A stretch of 54,135 bases of DNA from Spirochaetota bacterium (GTDB lineage Bacteria > Spirochaetota > Brevinematia > DTOW01). Positions 40,873 through 54,135 of the stretch are shown in pieces; position 1 is the first letter of the stretch, and each line of letters opens with the position of its first letter. Location: NCBI GenBank assembly GCA_025061835.1, contig JANXAC010000010.1, positions 1 to 54,135 of the forward strand, given 5' to 3'. Position numbers and translations under genes: made by a program. The notes beneath the pieces are model-generated. The model had not been told where the DNA came from and did not search any database. It worked only from the letters and a program-made list of their open reading frames with translations.

Positions 40873-40957
40873 GCCGGGGTGGTGGAATTTGGTAGACACG
40901 TGGGATTCAGGATCCCATGCCCGCGAGGGCGTACGGGTTCAAGTCCCGTCCCCGGCA
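40873..40957 (+). tRNA. tRNA-Leu (anticodon CAG)
   Basis: 85-nt class II cloverleaf: acceptor GCCGGGG/CCCCGGC with discriminator A; anticodon stem TGGGA/TCCCA around loop TTCAGGA; long variable arm (TGCCCGCGAGGGCGT); T arm GGGTTCAAGTCCC. CCA not encoded. Sandwiched between csrA (4 nt) and the PP2C gene (10 nt), so it is probably excised from a joint transcript. Confidence 0.95.
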
Positions 40958-45555: not shown

Positions 45556-46281
45556 CTATGACTTCCTTGATAGAATACTCCTACCGTAAGTCTCCTCTAT
45601 TATACTATGGTATATAAACTCTGATAGCATTATCAATTGTCTATTGTCAAGGCCAAAGAACCTGAAACCACAAAATAACCTATCTCTTCTTACCAGAAAA
45701 ACTTTGGACCTTATAACTATGTTACCAAATATAACCTCACAAGGGTAAGCCTTGTTATTTATGAACATATTCGCTTCTACTTCGGATGAAAAGTTAGCAC
45801 TAACACCTCCAGCACTGATATCGTATATATTACCTTCAATAAACTTGTTAGGTAAAATCTCCACTCTTATAACTCCATACTCTACCCTAACCCTATAATG
45901 CTTTCTTTTATCATTATCACTAATTGGCAATGTTTGCAATATTTCATAAACTTTTTCGGCAACGTCTTCCACCCTCAAAGAACTATCAACTATTCCCTTT
46001 ACTCCCTTTTGATGGAATTCTTTCAATCTTAAAATATCCTTTTCAGACGTTATCAAAATCAGATACTTTTTGGTATTGACTAGGTTCTCAAATAATACAT
46101 TAGAACTAGATTCGCTGAATTTTTTAATACCATCATAATCCATCACAAAAACATCAAAACTATCACCACCATCAAAGTCGTTTGGGAATATATGGTTCGC
46201 GTAATATCCCTTTGAGATAAGTATTACACCTATCACCCTAGAAGTAACTACACTATTTGATACTATTCCTACTTTTATCAT
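45556..46281 (-). CDS. PilZ-domain protein with degenerate receiver-like N-terminus
   Basis: 241 residues. Residues 1-118 look like a response-regulator fold (VGIVSNSVVTSRVIGVILISKGY, FDVFVMDYDG near 42-51, LILITSE, GVKGIVDS) but the acidic pocket is incomplete, so phosphorylation is doubtful. Residues 124-235 are a PilZ domain with the c-di-GMP signature RKHYR (126-130) and DISAGG (154-159), so binding is expected. Probably links c-di-GMP to motility or surface behaviour. The promoter (46318-46290) ends 8 nt before the ATG; no Shine-Dalgarno sequence. Confidence 0.8.
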   Translation of the reverse strand: MIKVGIVSNSVVTSRVIGVILISKGYYANHIFPNDFDGGDSFDVFVMDYDGIKKFSESSSNVLFENLVNTKKYLILITSEKDILRLKEFHQKGVKGIVDSSLRVEDVAEKVYEILQTLPISDNDKRKHYRVRVEYGVIRVEILPNKFIEGNIYDISAGGVSANFSSEVEANMFINNKAYPCEVIFGNIVIRSKVFLVRRDRLFCGFRFFGLDNRQLIMLSEFIYHSIIEETYGRSILSRKS

Positions 46282-46443: not shown

Positions 46444-47112
46444 TTAAGTATCTTTTCCATAATTCATCCTAAGTGTATTAACTACTCTCTCCGCATTACC
46501 ATCTCTAAAAAAGAAACTACCCATAACTAACACACTCGCACCACTCTCTATCAAACGCCACATATTCTCAATATTTACCCCACCATCAACTTCAATCTCC
46601 ACATCCCTTGATACTTGAGACAGGATTTCTCTAACCTTCTTAACTTTCCCTTCTGTTCCCGGAATAAGAGATTGTCCTGAGAAGCCTGGTTCAACAGTCA
46701 TAACAAGCACTAAATCAACTAAATCAAGATAAGGTATTATCACATCCGGATGCGTCCCAGGTTTTATTGAGATACCTACTTTCCTACCACTCTCCTTTAT
46801 AAGATTGAGTATATTCCTTGAAAATCCACCCGCTTCCGTATGAACTGTTATTATCTGAACATTATCAATAAAAAATCTCTCTACCTTACTAGGAGATAAC
46901 TCTATCATAAGATGAACATCACCCGGTATTGACGTAGCCTTTGCGATTTGCTCAGTTATCAGCGGACCAAAACTTATGTTTGGAACGAAATGATAATCCA
47001 TTATGTCGTAGTGTATGTAATCAACCTTAAGTCGCTCAATATCCTCAATAACCTTCTTAAGATTCACAAAATCTGCTGCGAATATTGAAGGTGCTATTTT
47101 TACACTCTTCAT
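46444..47112 (-). CDS. rpe: Ribulose-phosphate 3-epimerase
   Basis: Interconverts ribulose 5-phosphate and xylulose 5-phosphate. 222 residues, TIM barrel: APSIFAADFVNL at 7-18, HYDIMDYHFVPNISFGP near 34-50, VHLMIE near 71, MTVEPGFSGQS near 139 and EVDGGVN near 172. The usual DxMDGHFVPN has Tyr in place of Gly here; the metal ligands are kept. The start overlaps the PASTA-protein stop by 4 nt (ATGA), so translation is coupled. Confidence 0.95.
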   Translation of the reverse strand: MKSVKIAPSIFAADFVNLKKVIEDIERLKVDYIHYDIMDYHFVPNISFGPLITEQIAKATSIPGDVHLMIELSPSKVERFFIDNVQIITVHTEAGGFSRNILNLIKESGRKVGISIKPGTHPDVIIPYLDLVDLVLVMTVEPGFSGQSLIPGTEGKVKKVREILSQVSRDVEIEVDGGVNIENMWRLIESGASVLVMGSFFFRDGNAERVVNTLRMNYGKDT

Positions 47113-48176
47113 ATCGTATCTTCTCTAACTAGTTCTTCATTTACGAATACTTGTATTTTTGCAACACCTCTAACTTTGAGAGGTAAGACAAGAGTTGATA
47201 GGTTGTTTAGTGTTTTATCAATTCTTCTATTACCGGAGGAGTCAGTTATAGAAATTCTAATGTAGTAAGTATTCACATCAGCCTTTGAGAAGGAGCGAAG
47301 CCCTACTTTGTAAAGTACAAACCTTGTGTTTTGAACAACATTCTCATCACCAAAAACACCTATAAACAATTCTGGAACTACATTCTGAGACACAAACTCA
47401 TCTTCACGAGGCAGATGATCAAGAACCACTCCATCATTGGCAGGGTCTGTAGTTTGAGTTGTAGTTACCTTAAAACTAACACCCTTTGAGTCAAGGAATA
47501 ACATCGCTTTGTCATAAGAAAAACCTACCATATTAGGCATAGGAAAACCTACTTGAGGACCACTACTTACATAAACAACAACTTGACTACCAGGCTTAAG
47601 TTTTGAACCGAAGGATGGATAAGTCTTTATCACTGTTCCCTGCTCCATCTCTGACTGGACATATTCAACAGAAGATATATAAACACCCTTGGAAGCAAGA
47701 AAACTTCTTAGTTCCTCAATCTGCTTACCAGTAAAGTCAGGCAAAACAAATTCACCACTACCCAGACTAACGAATATTTTTATTGACTTTCCCTCCCTAA
47801 CTATATTACCAGGCGATGGTATCTGTCTTACAACAATACCCCTAGGCTTATCCTCTGATATAACAACTTCCATATTAGGAACTAATCCCGCATTACCAAT
47901 CTCTACTAAAGCACCAATTATATCATCCCCAACAACATCTGGAACTACCACCGTCTTGGAAGGAGTAAGAAGGATTGCAATAACAATCACAGAGAAAACA
48001 AAAAACACTAAAAACGACAGCGAAAGAAGAAACAGAGCCTTCCTAACCTCATTCGTTACAAGGTCTATCTCCGAAGATATTCCAAAAATATTCATAAAAA
48101 ACTTTGAAACTCTCTCAAACAGAACACCTAAAATTCCTAGAAATGCCTCCCAAATTGACTTTAGTATGTGATACAT
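47109..48176 (-). CDS. Membrane-anchored PASTA-domain protein without kinase domain
   Basis: 355 residues. Short cytoplasmic N-terminus (about 1-48) with amphipathic helices, one transmembrane helix (about 49-70), then three extracytoplasmic PASTA repeats (about 72-140, 141-208 and 210-275) with PDVVGDDIIGALVEIGNAGL, LPDFTGKQIEELRSFLASKG and MPNMVGFSYDKAMLFLDSKG, and an unassigned beta-rich tail. PASTA modules sense peptidoglycan muropeptides in PrkC-type kinases; here no kinase domain exists. Candidate promoter TTGTTT-18-TAGAAT (48212-48183) ends 6 nt before the ATG. Operon with rpe. Confidence 0.88.
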   Translation of the reverse strand: MYHILKSIWEAFLGILGVLFERVSKFFMNIFGISSEIDLVTNEVRKALFLLSLSFLVFFVFSVIVIAILLTPSKTVVVPDVVGDDIIGALVEIGNAGLVPNMEVVISEDKPRGIVVRQIPSPGNIVREGKSIKIFVSLGSGEFVLPDFTGKQIEELRSFLASKGVYISSVEYVQSEMEQGTVIKTYPSFGSKLKPGSQVVVYVSSGPQVGFPMPNMVGFSYDKAMLFLDSKGVSFKVTTTQTTDPANDGVVLDHLPREDEFVSQNVVPELFIGVFGDENVVQNTRFVLYKVGLRSFSKADVNTYYIRISITDSSGNRRIDKTLNNLSTLVLPLKVRGVAKIQVFVNEELVREDTI

Positions 48177-51521: not shown

Positions 51522-52457
51522 ATGGATAAAATTATTCAAGTTAATTCAGTATCCCAAAACTTTTTCGTAAAAGACCCAAATAGACTTGCGTATTATATAC
51601 CTGTCAAAGCACTTGAAGATATAACTTTTGATGTTATTAGAAATACAACTTTATCTATCGTAGGTGAAAGCGGTTCAGGTAAGACAACGATAGGAAACAT
51701 CGTTCTAGGTGCGATTAAGCCAACAAAAGGAGATGTCCTATGGTATGGAAAATCAATATTCAATAAACAAGTTAAGAAAGATTACCTTAAAATCATACAC
51801 ACAGTTTCCCAAAACCCTCTGAGTTCCCTTAACCCCAGAATGAACGTAAAGAGCATAATAACTGAACCCCTACTCTTCAGAGAAAAATTGTCAAACAAAG
51901 AGGCTGAGGACAGAATAGCAAAAGTTGTTGAAGATGTGAAATTGAGTAAAGACATACTTTACAAATATCCACACGAGTTAAGTGGAGGAGAAAAGCAGAG
52001 AGTAAGCATCGCAAGAAGTATCATATCACAACCATCTATCATAGTTCTGGATGAACCAGTATCTTCTTTAGATGTATCTATAAGAGCACAGATACTCAAC
52101 CTACTTGTTGACATCAAGGCAAGGTATGGACTTACCTATATCTACATATCTCACGACATTTCAACCACAAGGTTCATATCAGACTACCTTCTAGTTCTGT
52201 ATAAAGGTAGGATAATGGAAATCGGAAACTCAGAGAGTATCTTTTCAAATCCTACAAACCCATACACCAGGTTTCTTTTATCTTCTGTCCCTAACCAGAA
52301 AATTGTAGAAGAGTTCAAAACTCTTGAGCGAGAAGAAGAAAGTAAAGGTTGTCCATTCTACAATCGCTGCCCTATAGCAACTTCAATCTGCAAAACCACA
52401 TTCCCAGACAAGAAAATAATTAAGGAAAACCACATATCTTACTGCCACAACATATAG
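51522..52457 (+). CDS. Oligopeptide/dipeptide ABC transporter ATPase, OppF/DppF type
   Basis: 311 residues from ATG 51522, 1 nt after the gyrA stop. Walker A GESGSGKTT near 47-55, Q-loop VSQNPLSSLNPRM typical of OppF/DppF, signature LSGGEKQR near 151, Walker B IIVLDEPVSSLD near 170, H-loop YISHD, and the C-terminal cysteine motif GCPFYNRCPIATSIC (FeS or metal-binding in OppD/F). Opp permeases, OppD and binding protein are not in the window. It is presumably translated by coupling with gyrA, an unusual pairing. Confidence 0.88.
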   Translation: MDKIIQVNSVSQNFFVKDPNRLAYYIPVKALEDITFDVIRNTTLSIVGESGSGKTTIGNIVLGAIKPTKGDVLWYGKSIFNKQVKKDYLKIIHTVSQNPLSSLNPRMNVKSIITEPLLFREKLSNKEAEDRIAKVVEDVKLSKDILYKYPHELSGGEKQRVSIARSIISQPSIIVLDEPVSSLDVSIRAQILNLLVDIKARYGLTYIYISHDISTTRFISDYLLVLYKGRIMEIGNSESIFSNPTNPYTRFLLSSVPNQKIVEEFKTLEREEESKGCPFYNRCPIATSICKTTFPDKKIIKENHISYCHNI

Positions 52458-52492: not shown

Positions 52493-52521
52493 TTGATAAA
52501 CTAAACATTATATTTGATAAT
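52493..52521 (+). promoter_or_regulatory. Promoter of the zinc-ribbon gene set, leaderless type
   Basis: TTGATA (52493-52498), 17-nt spacer, GATAAT (52516-52521), 10 nt to ATG 52532. The TTG at 52514 lies inside the promoter and is not the start. Confidence 0.55.
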
Positions 52522-52531
52522 TAATCATGTT

Positions 52532-53332
52532 ATGAGAAAACTAGGTTTGGAATTATACAAAATAAGATCAAGTAAAACAAACTTAGAGGTCCTACTTAAC
52601 CTTGATAGGATAAGAAACCACGATGACTTTATTAGCCTACCCTTTGTAAACTGGTTTGTAAGCAATACAAACATAACATTTCAAAAACTGTGGAATTTCT
52701 TCTTCTTTACACCTATACTTGAGGCTTGGAAGAAGGATGGGAAAATTATTTCAGAATTTCTGATAAAGAATAACAAATTCAGGAAAACATATGGTGAAGA
52801 ACACATTGAGCTTTTCGTTAATGAAAGACTAGTAACACTTGATATACTACCATCAGAAGCATTTGACTTCTTAGAGATAGAATCGTCTCAACAACTTAGA
52901 GTTTGGGACCATAACACCATATTAGTTTCAAAGAATATCATTCATTGCCAGTCATGCCATAACAGATTCCTTACAAGCGAGATAGTTGAACCTTTAGATA
53001 GTAGCAGTGGTATATGCTGGTATTGTGCTGAAAGACTAACTCCTCACGAGAGAAGGATACTGGAAACACCAAAACTATTCAGAAATAGGATAGATGAAAC
53101 TTGGAAATTACTAGATAAAAAACAGAGAGAGAAGATCGTGTTTGACATTCTAAGAAACACTAGAACACACTACAAAATATCTGACATTCATGAACTGAAA
53201 GTTATATCAAGAGAGGTCGCTTCAGAAAACAGTATCTACAACACAAACAAACTAACCAAGAGAGAGTTAGAAGAACTTATAAAAACATTGGATAGAGATT
53301 ATTTTATTGATTGGTGGGGTAAGATATTATGA
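52532..53332 (+). CDS. Zinc-ribbon protein of unknown function
   Basis: 266 residues, no signal peptide or membrane segment, rich in Trp, Phe and Arg/Lys. It has two cysteine pairs, CQSC (139-142) and CWYC (162-165), spaced 19 residues, as in treble-clef or zinc-ribbon folds. The C-terminal part (about 175-266) is helical and charged (DKKQREKIVFDILRNTR, TKRELEELIKTLD). I do not recognise the family; nucleic-acid or protein binding is possible. First of three overlapping genes that continue past the window end. Confidence 0.6.
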   Translation: MRKLGLELYKIRSSKTNLEVLLNLDRIRNHDDFISLPFVNWFVSNTNITFQKLWNFFFFTPILEAWKKDGKIISEFLIKNNKFRKTYGEEHIELFVNERLVTLDILPSEAFDFLEIESSQQLRVWDHNTILVSKNIIHCQSCHNRFLTSEIVEPLDSSSGICWYCAERLTPHERRILETPKLFRNRIDETWKLLDKKQREKIVFDILRNTRTHYKISDIHELKVISREVASENSIYNTNKLTKRELEELIKTLDRDYFIDWWGKIL

Positions 53333-53700
53333 GACCTCCAAAACCATCTAAAAACAAAATGTTTCACAGGTACGCCAAAAAACAGCATATAATCAATAAT
53401 AACACCCACCTACACGATATAACCTTTAAATGTGATGAAACTGTAATAACAGGTGTTTGTCCAATATGCAGACAAAACACATACTATGATCCTTCAAACA
53501 TCATAGTCGGTAGTAACATTTTTCATTTTGATTGTGTGTTTGAGTGGGTAAGAGATAATTTTGGAGTTGATAAAGACAAAAAGATTTACTACATTGGTTC
53601 TAAAGCATTTGGAATATTCTGGGAGAGCAAAAATGGCAAGAAATTAGAAATGTTAAAAAGGATAAACCTTGAAGAGTATCTAAATACATATGCTAGATAG
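53329..53700 (+). CDS. Small zinc-finger-like protein of unknown function
   Basis: 123 residues with a basic N-terminus (RPPKPSKNKMFHRYAKKQH), then Cys35, CPIC (44-47) and HFDC (66-69), which form a plausible zinc site (C2-HC, RING-like spacing). The closing part is charged (SKNGKKLEMLKRINLEEYL). Family not recognised. The ATG overlaps the upstream stop (ATGA), so it is co-translated with the other zinc-ribbon protein. Confidence 0.6.
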   Translation: MRPPKPSKNKMFHRYAKKQHIINNNTHLHDITFKCDETVITGVCPICRQNTYYDPSNIIVGSNIFHFDCVFEWVRDNFGVDKDKKIYYIGSKAFGIFWESKNGKKLEMLKRINLEEYLNTYAR

Positions 53701-54135
53701 AATATTTAACCTAATAAATACACTGGAAGAGATATTATTAGCCGAAAGTGATATATACTCTGTTGATTTCAAAAGTATATGTCTTAAAACACTATCTAAC
53801 GATATAGATTTCGGTATATACTCAGAGACTCACAAAGGATTTCTAATTAGTTTTAGATCCAAAAATACGAAGATCCTCAAGGATGTTATAACTCCTAATG
53901 AGATTTCAAAGTCCCCAACTATTCACGATGATAATACAGTCTATGCTGATCTACTTGTATTCACTAGAAAGTTTCACAAAAAGATAATAATAAGGCTTGC
54001 CTTAGGACCTTTGGATAACGACCAAAAATCATTGATAAACAAGATTATCAAAAACTTTTACTCTTTTCAAGAAATGTATGATAAAAACTATGTATTCCAA
54101 GAACTCCTTGAAATACTAAAAGAAACAACAGAAGT
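53690..54135 (+). CDS. Third gene of the zinc-ribbon operon, 5' part (runs off the window)
   Basis: ATG 53690 overlaps the end of the upstream gene by 11 nt; the frame stays open for 148 codons to the window edge. Sequence: MLDRIFNLINTLEEILLAES at the start; an alpha/beta domain with GIYSETHKGFLISFRSK and KKIIIRLALGPL; and a helix ending FQEMYDKNYVFQELLEIL. The pattern resembles a GAF/PAS-type sensory domain followed by the linker helix that often precedes a kinase, GGDEF or phosphatase output domain, but the output lies outside the window. Function unassigned. Confidence 0.55.
   Translation, partial: MLDRIFNLINTLEEILLAESDIYSVDFKSICLKTLSNDIDFGIYSETHKGFLISFRSKNTKILKDVITPNEISKSPTIHDDNTVYADLLVFTRKFHKKIIIRLALGPLDNDQKSLINKIIKNFYSFQEMYDKNYVFQELLEILKETTE

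Follow-up and report, generated by a model that had tools for sequence, protein, structure and literature searches.

The window, i.e. the whole stretch of 54,135 nt analysed here, is the entire contig G000:C10 of a 1.80-Mb assembly of a Spirochaetota bacterium, and it ends within the last of three consecutive genes located on the plus strand. Gene 1 (52532-53332) corresponds to an ORF of 266 aa, for which a TTG at 52514 is another possible start codon, gene 2 (53329-53700) to an ORF of 123 aa, and gene 3 (53690-54135) to an ORF that is open at the contig end and of which the first 148 aa, forming an N-terminal domain, are visible. Genes 1 and 2 overlap by 4 nt (53329-53332, ATGA) and genes 2 and 3 by 11 nt (53690-53700), as had been noted in an earlier reading based on the nucleotide sequence alone (hereafter the sequence-only reading). 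The cysteine motifs pointed out in that reading were also found in place, as C-x2-C-x19-C-x2-C (C139, C142, C162 and C165) in the product of gene 1, here named ZF1, and as C44-P-I-C47 and H66-F-D-C69 in that of gene 2, named ZF2. The three frames are regarded as real genes because each has orthologues, with 31-50% identity for gene 1, 39-48% for gene 2 and 32-49% for the visible part of gene 3. Among the 10 matches to gene 3 detected in G000 (24-43% identity), none was a contig end continuing this gene.

The same reading had placed the trio under one promoter. Sigma-70-like hexamers (TTGATA-17-GATAAT, 52493-52521, +) matching 10 of 12 consensus positions do occur before gene 1, but the region has no more sites of this kind than expected by chance (8 observed, fewer than the mean of 11.2 in shuffled sequence), so that this match is by itself no evidence of a promoter. 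No c-di-GMP riboswitch was detected near the trio at Rfam gathering scores, either in the window or in L095, L096 and L097.

Several other features of the window were recorded. An oligopeptide-type ABC ATPase with an oligo_HPY C-terminus (51522-52457) comes directly after a gene read by eye as GyrA-like, and no transporter permease was noticed adjoining it. A membrane protein with apparent repeated PASTA-type domains (47109-48176, -), also read by eye, lies beside a ribulose-phosphate epimerase-like gene. Finally, the ATG called as the start of a SpoIIE-phosphatase ORF (40917) falls within a tRNA (40873-40957), indicating that this gene probably starts further downstream.

Conservation of the trio and distribution of gene 1

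A search of 41 genomes, counting G000 itself, detected gene 1 and the visible part of gene 3 in 4 genomes each, and gene 2 in 21. All three relatives holding the genes (G001, G003 and G004) have the trio side by side and in the same order, with overlaps of 4 and 20 nt in G003 and of 11 and 20 nt in G004; in G001, genes 1 and 2 are separated by ca. 11 nt, or overlap if a non-ATG start is used, and genes 2 and 3 overlap by 26 nt. In G002, an assembly with 84% completeness, no more than a 28-residue fragment of gene 1 was detected, at the edge of a contig. When the 55 ORFs of the window were compared with the regions of G001, G003 and G004 (and G002), only the trio was found together in all three relatives, and its flanks, both upstream and downstream, are different in each genome, which indicates that it is the unit that is conserved and not the neighbourhood. 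The tight coupling put forward in the sequence-only reading is in agreement with this pattern, and the trio is likely to represent a functional unit.

A separate observation concerns a gene of the window (45556-46281, -) that encodes a receiver-like and PilZ-like protein (PilZ E 5e-4, below cut-off), a possible c-di-GMP receptor; in G001, and in none of the other relatives, a copy with 66% identity is located close to the trio, ca. 2.4 kb away. Three further ORFs of the window gave ABC-ATPase matches in G001.

The orthologues of ZF1 display 50% (G003), 46% (G001) and 31% (G004, partial) identity, and all four cysteines are kept in the four aligned rows. Across 296 genomes, gene 1 was detected at E 0.001 or better in 6, which include the 28-residue piece of G002 as well as a match in G237, a member of another family, that is probably due to chance (E 9.5e-4, internal stop). 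A scan of the genome contigs for gene 1 returned one locus, L100, which, judging from its length and ORFs, corresponds to the same contig as that of G004. By these similarity searches, gene 1 was convincingly found only in the window's own spirochaete family. ZF1 reached the cut-off of no Pfam or NCBIfam family, its comparison with the PDB gave nothing convincing, and its predicted structure (pLDDT 45) is too poor for judging a ribbon fold; a weak match to phrog_37764 (E 0.0057) was left aside. The idea that ZF1 and ZF2 are paralogues was not supported, with an hhalign probability of 1.5%.

Domain content of gene 3 in the relatives

Gene 3 is complete in the three relatives, where it encodes products of 499, 495 and 489 aa composed of an N-terminal domain of ca. 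145 aa without Pfam match, a GAF domain (residues ca. 153-294) and an HD_5 domain (residues ca. 311-478). Both GAF and HD_5 are above Pfam cut-offs in all three, HD_5 (PF13487) with 142, 143 and 150 bits for a cut-off of 27.2. The best match among solved structures is PmGH, a GAF-HD-GYP c-di-GMP phosphodiesterase of Persephonella marina (PDB 4mcw; E 1.7e-70, residues 152-490), followed by a 3'3'-cGAMP phosphodiesterase (5z7c, E 1.1e-40), and the HDIGK and HHERFDGKGYP motifs are found in gene 3 of L017. Of the eight PmGH metal ligands given in the passages of PMC4159591 considered here, seven are kept once their positions are checked against the 4mcw chain, the eighth, E185, being replaced by Tyr in the three relatives. 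According to the same passages, PmGH activity requires D183 and K225, the equivalents of which are both kept, and a subfamily of HD-GYP proteins has mainly Tyr or Phe at the E185 position. Gene 3 is thus very likely to encode an HD-GYP enzyme in the relatives, where, judging from these domains and motifs, its product is probably a sensor enzyme that destroys c-di-GMP.

The sequence-only reading had described the start of gene 3 as GAF-like and had considered that the gene might end in a signalling output. The first proposal is not borne out by the profile comparisons made here, as the visible 148 aa have no Pfam GAF match and the GAF domain of the relatives lies beyond the point at which the window's contig ends. 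The second agrees with the HD-GYP domain of the relatives, but the window itself shows the N-terminal domain only. That this domain could be a second GAF was also considered, but its profile did not align with that of the downstream GAF in these proteins, the profiles compared being small. A weak match at the start of gene 3 (RP854, E 0.0037) was left aside.

The ZF2 family and its genomic neighbourhood

Gene 2 is not peculiar to the trio and, on the basis of profile searches, is a member of a phylum-wide, unnamed family. Searched with a 10-member profile, 392 Spirochaetota genomes yielded ZF2 in 285 cases, almost always as a single copy, and a second profile built from 43 core sequences gave the same count, with E values mostly from 1e-15 to 1e-33. 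Forty loci were sampled so as to represent different families, and 39 of these 40 retain the full signature C-x2-C-x(14-22)-H-[FY]-x-C, as do the four rows of the window's own family. Eight columns are invariant in the 43 core rows, which leave out the member of L083 (6636-7160, genome G202); the latter has C-x2-S and R-F-D-A and has lost its zinc ligands, suggesting that zinc may be dispensable in this lineage. In gene 2 itself, C35 is an unlikely ligand because it is not conserved in the three relatives. The N-terminal tails vary in length and are mostly basic, as is that of gene 2, with a median net charge of +9 and a charge of at least +5 in 33 of 40; two are slightly negative.

An AlphaFold2 model of gene 2 obtained from a two-sequence input (pLDDT 71, pTM 0.64) displays a knuckle, a short hairpin, a helix starting at H66-C69 and then three strands, the resulting C-terminal sheet carrying a Y-x-G-x-x-x-F motif. 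In this model the domain appears treble-clef-like. Foldseek returned no match with E < 0.001 for the model, and the best Z of VIA-align (4.2) was not used as evidence. A RING finger was rejected as an identification, the family having four conserved ligands and not eight and zf-RING_2 scoring 19.6 bits for a curated cut-off of 27.3. A profile search of the PDB with the family gave weak hits only, one to MecR1 (E 0.0047) and others to the glycine-loop region of kinases (E 0.011 for CDK7). The Y-x-G-x-x-x-F turn does resemble such a loop, but no other kinase part is present and the resemblance was put down to chance.

When proteins of the family were scanned one by one, all Pfam and NCBIfam models stayed below their cut-offs. 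For the 43 core sequences, a scan in which curated cut-offs were shown for the first member only, the best E value was 0.005 in NCBIfam and 3.2e-5 in Pfam, the latter for zf-rbx1, which matched 2 of the 43. With ZF1 and ZF2 both below the Pfam and NCBIfam cut-offs, the statement of the sequence-only reading that neither zinc protein matches a family familiar to it is supported. No description of the ZF2 family was found in the open-access literature searched. From its position in the locus order, the ZF2 orthologue of Treponema pallidum may be TP0913a, a gene with peptides reported from several strains (PMC12687308). The family represents an annotation gap, as it occurs in most spirochaetes, including Borrelia-like and syphilis-treponeme-like genomes, and no Pfam or NCBIfam model was found for it.

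The neighbourhood of ZF2 was compared in the 40 sampled loci. Upstream and on the same strand, a distance of at most 2.5 kb separates ZF2 from yraN in 21 loci and from an HD-GYP gene in 15 loci, which represent 12 families, while rplS, fhlB and trmD are found within 6 kb in 16, 13 and 12 loci, respectively; the counts for yraN, fhlB, rplS and trmD derive from mechanical clusters of five genes on each side, and distant copies are therefore undercounted. None of the five genes was present in the counted ranges in 17 loci, including the Brachyspira-like and same-class loci. A frequent arrangement is rimM-trmD-rplS-(fliK-fhlB-HD-GYP)-yraN-ZF. With gene names read from the sequence and genome labels of this kind deduced from size and gene content, in two further genomes it takes the form KH-rimM-trmD-rplS-fliK-like-HD-GYP-yraN-ZF in the Treponema pallidum-like G068 (1.14 Mb) and ffh-rpsP-KH-rimM-trmD-rplS-fliK-like-fhlB-ZF-coaD-acpP-rnc in the Borrelia-like G236 (0.91 Mb). 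In the window's own family, rplS stands after rplT and is not accompanied by a zinc gene, indicating that gene 2 has moved.

Two side observations were made in these loci. Flagellar-looking fliK-like and/or fhlB genes lie near ZF2 in L060, L061, L062, L069, L073, L074, L081, L087, L089, L092, L093, L111 and L112, all of which but L112 have an HD-GYP gene; in L111 and L112 the flagellar-looking genes come after rplS of the ribosomal rimM-trmD-rplS cluster. Very Asp-rich, low-complexity ORFs occur near ZF2 in two Brachyspira-like genomes (L011, 2010-2432; L012, 2092-2472).

Out of 373 genomes, 348 gave an HD_5 match and 25 did not. Twenty of the latter were listed, and 18 of these 20, each at least 93% complete, carry ZF2; the other two, G216 (76% complete) and G222 (54%), were not among the ZF2 matches listed. 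Conversely, the 20 genomes listed among the 107 without ZF2 all have HD_5 matches. This presence/absence pattern rules out an obligate dependence and indicates that neither ZF2 nor HD-GYP needs the other in general, and the retention of ZF2 without HD-GYP that the family has an independent role. The repeated occurrence of ZF2 together with HD-GYP is suggestive; since the 15 HD-GYP neighbours all show a single arrangement, they may go back to one ancestral event. The basic tail and the ribosomal-operon home point to RNA or the ribosome, a link that we regard as possible, if slightly less so than its contrary. The sequence-only reading had spoken of a set that could be nucleic-acid-linked, and what is left of this is the part that concerns gene 2, namely its basic tails and the ribosomal-operon location of the family elsewhere.

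Proposed function and comparison with known systems

In a single spirochaete family, the three genes make up a small unit resembling an operon, for which we propose, with confidence that is evenly balanced, a co-translated c-di-GMP phosphodiesterase unit having two non-catalytic zinc partners, one of which was recruited from the old ZF2 family. Gene 3 would encode a soluble protein whose N-terminal domain and GAF sense something in the cytosol and control the HD-GYP domain, which would hydrolyse c-di-GMP. ZF1 and ZF2, translated together with gene 3, would most likely be its non-catalytic partners and could for instance place the enzyme at a target or pass on its state; such a partnership with gene 3, taken on its own, is about equally open to either answer. 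Gene 2 would have been drawn from a zinc family that is spread across the spirochaetes and usually encoded in the rimM-trmD-rplS-yraN ribosome-maturation cluster; the proteins of this family would probably use their basic tail to bind RNA or the ribosome. A more far-reaching version, which we consider rather unlikely, is that ZF2 is an undescribed, near phylum-wide family of the ribosome-maturation cluster that has here been wired to a c-di-GMP phosphodiesterase, coupling messenger turnover to translation or RNA, the HD-GYP neighbours found elsewhere being an older trace of this link.

Co-expression could also account for the locus, gene 2 being a housekeeping RNA- or ribosome-associated zinc factor that moved by chance beside a GAF-HD-GYP gene without any joint action. 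The retention of ZF2 in 18 of the 20 listed HD-GYP-free genomes, its position in or beside rimM-trmD-rplS(-yraN) in many genomes, G068 and G236 among them, and the lack of a zinc gene beside the rplS that follows rplT in the window's own family are all in line with such a displacement, yet the trio is overlapping or nearly so in the three relatives despite reshuffled flanks, and a random move would have brought gene 2 next to an HD-GYP gene with a probability of ca. 1%, a post hoc estimate that counts 7 HD_5 matches in G000 plus gene 3 and assumes ca. 1,700 genes. This explanation is a tenable one that we place below the phosphodiesterase unit.

One improbable reading is that the product of gene 3 has a cyclic nucleotide other than c-di-GMP as its substrate, for instance 3'3'-cGAMP, or has turned into a non-catalytic binder, in which case the unit would not be a c-di-GMP phosphodiesterase. 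The Tyr that replaces E185, a bridging carboxylate in PmGH, and the rank of 5z7c as second-best solved match would fit this possibility, against which stand the retention of the other seven ligands and of the residues equivalent to D183 and K225, and the natural occurrence of the Tyr/Phe form as an HD-GYP subfamily in the passages of PMC4159591 cited above. Small overlapping genes, two undescribed proteins and a gene 1 confined to one family might equally evoke a toxin-antitoxin, phage-defence or mobile module, but PADLOC had no match for ZF1 or ZF2, its sole match for gene 3 was a weak one to Cas10, and ZF2 is phylum-wide with one copy in nearly every genome having it, so that a module of this type is very improbable.

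When the proposed c-di-GMP phosphodiesterase unit is compared with known systems, ZF2 resembles RING and treble-clef fingers (zf-RING_2, zf-rbx1, zf-Vps39_C) in its CPxC knuckle, in the second ligand pair, placed at a helix start in the model, and in weak profile matches; it differs from them in having only four conserved ligands and its own C-terminal Y-x-G-x-x-x-F sheet, and in scoring below the curated cut-off where this was shown. The archaeal DUF2175 (PF09943) gave weak matches in 7 of 43 ZF2 members (best E 6.3e-4), which in the one member whose range was seen are below cut-off and cover residues 9-49 only. The rplS-fliK-fhlB-HD-GYP-yraN-ZF cluster shares with the trio an HD-GYP gene near a ZF2-family gene, but the one cluster HD-GYP scanned has no GAF (a weak DUF3391 match was found), and the cluster gene lies upstream of ZF2, usually with yraN in between. 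The closest counterpart of gene 3 is PmGH, which it resembles in GAF plus HD-GYP along the whole alignment, in the HD and GYP motifs and in seven of the eight ligands, whereas the relatives' gene 3 has an additional N-terminal domain of ca. 145 aa, Tyr for E185 and a coupling to two zinc-protein genes. As far as gene 3 goes, its product would work like other GAF-HD-GYP phosphodiesterases, and the zinc partners would be the new part. HD-GYP enzymes are usually accompanied by receivers, GGDEF or PilZ partners; if the proposal is true, the conserved, co-translated pair of zinc proteins would represent a new kind of HD-GYP partner.
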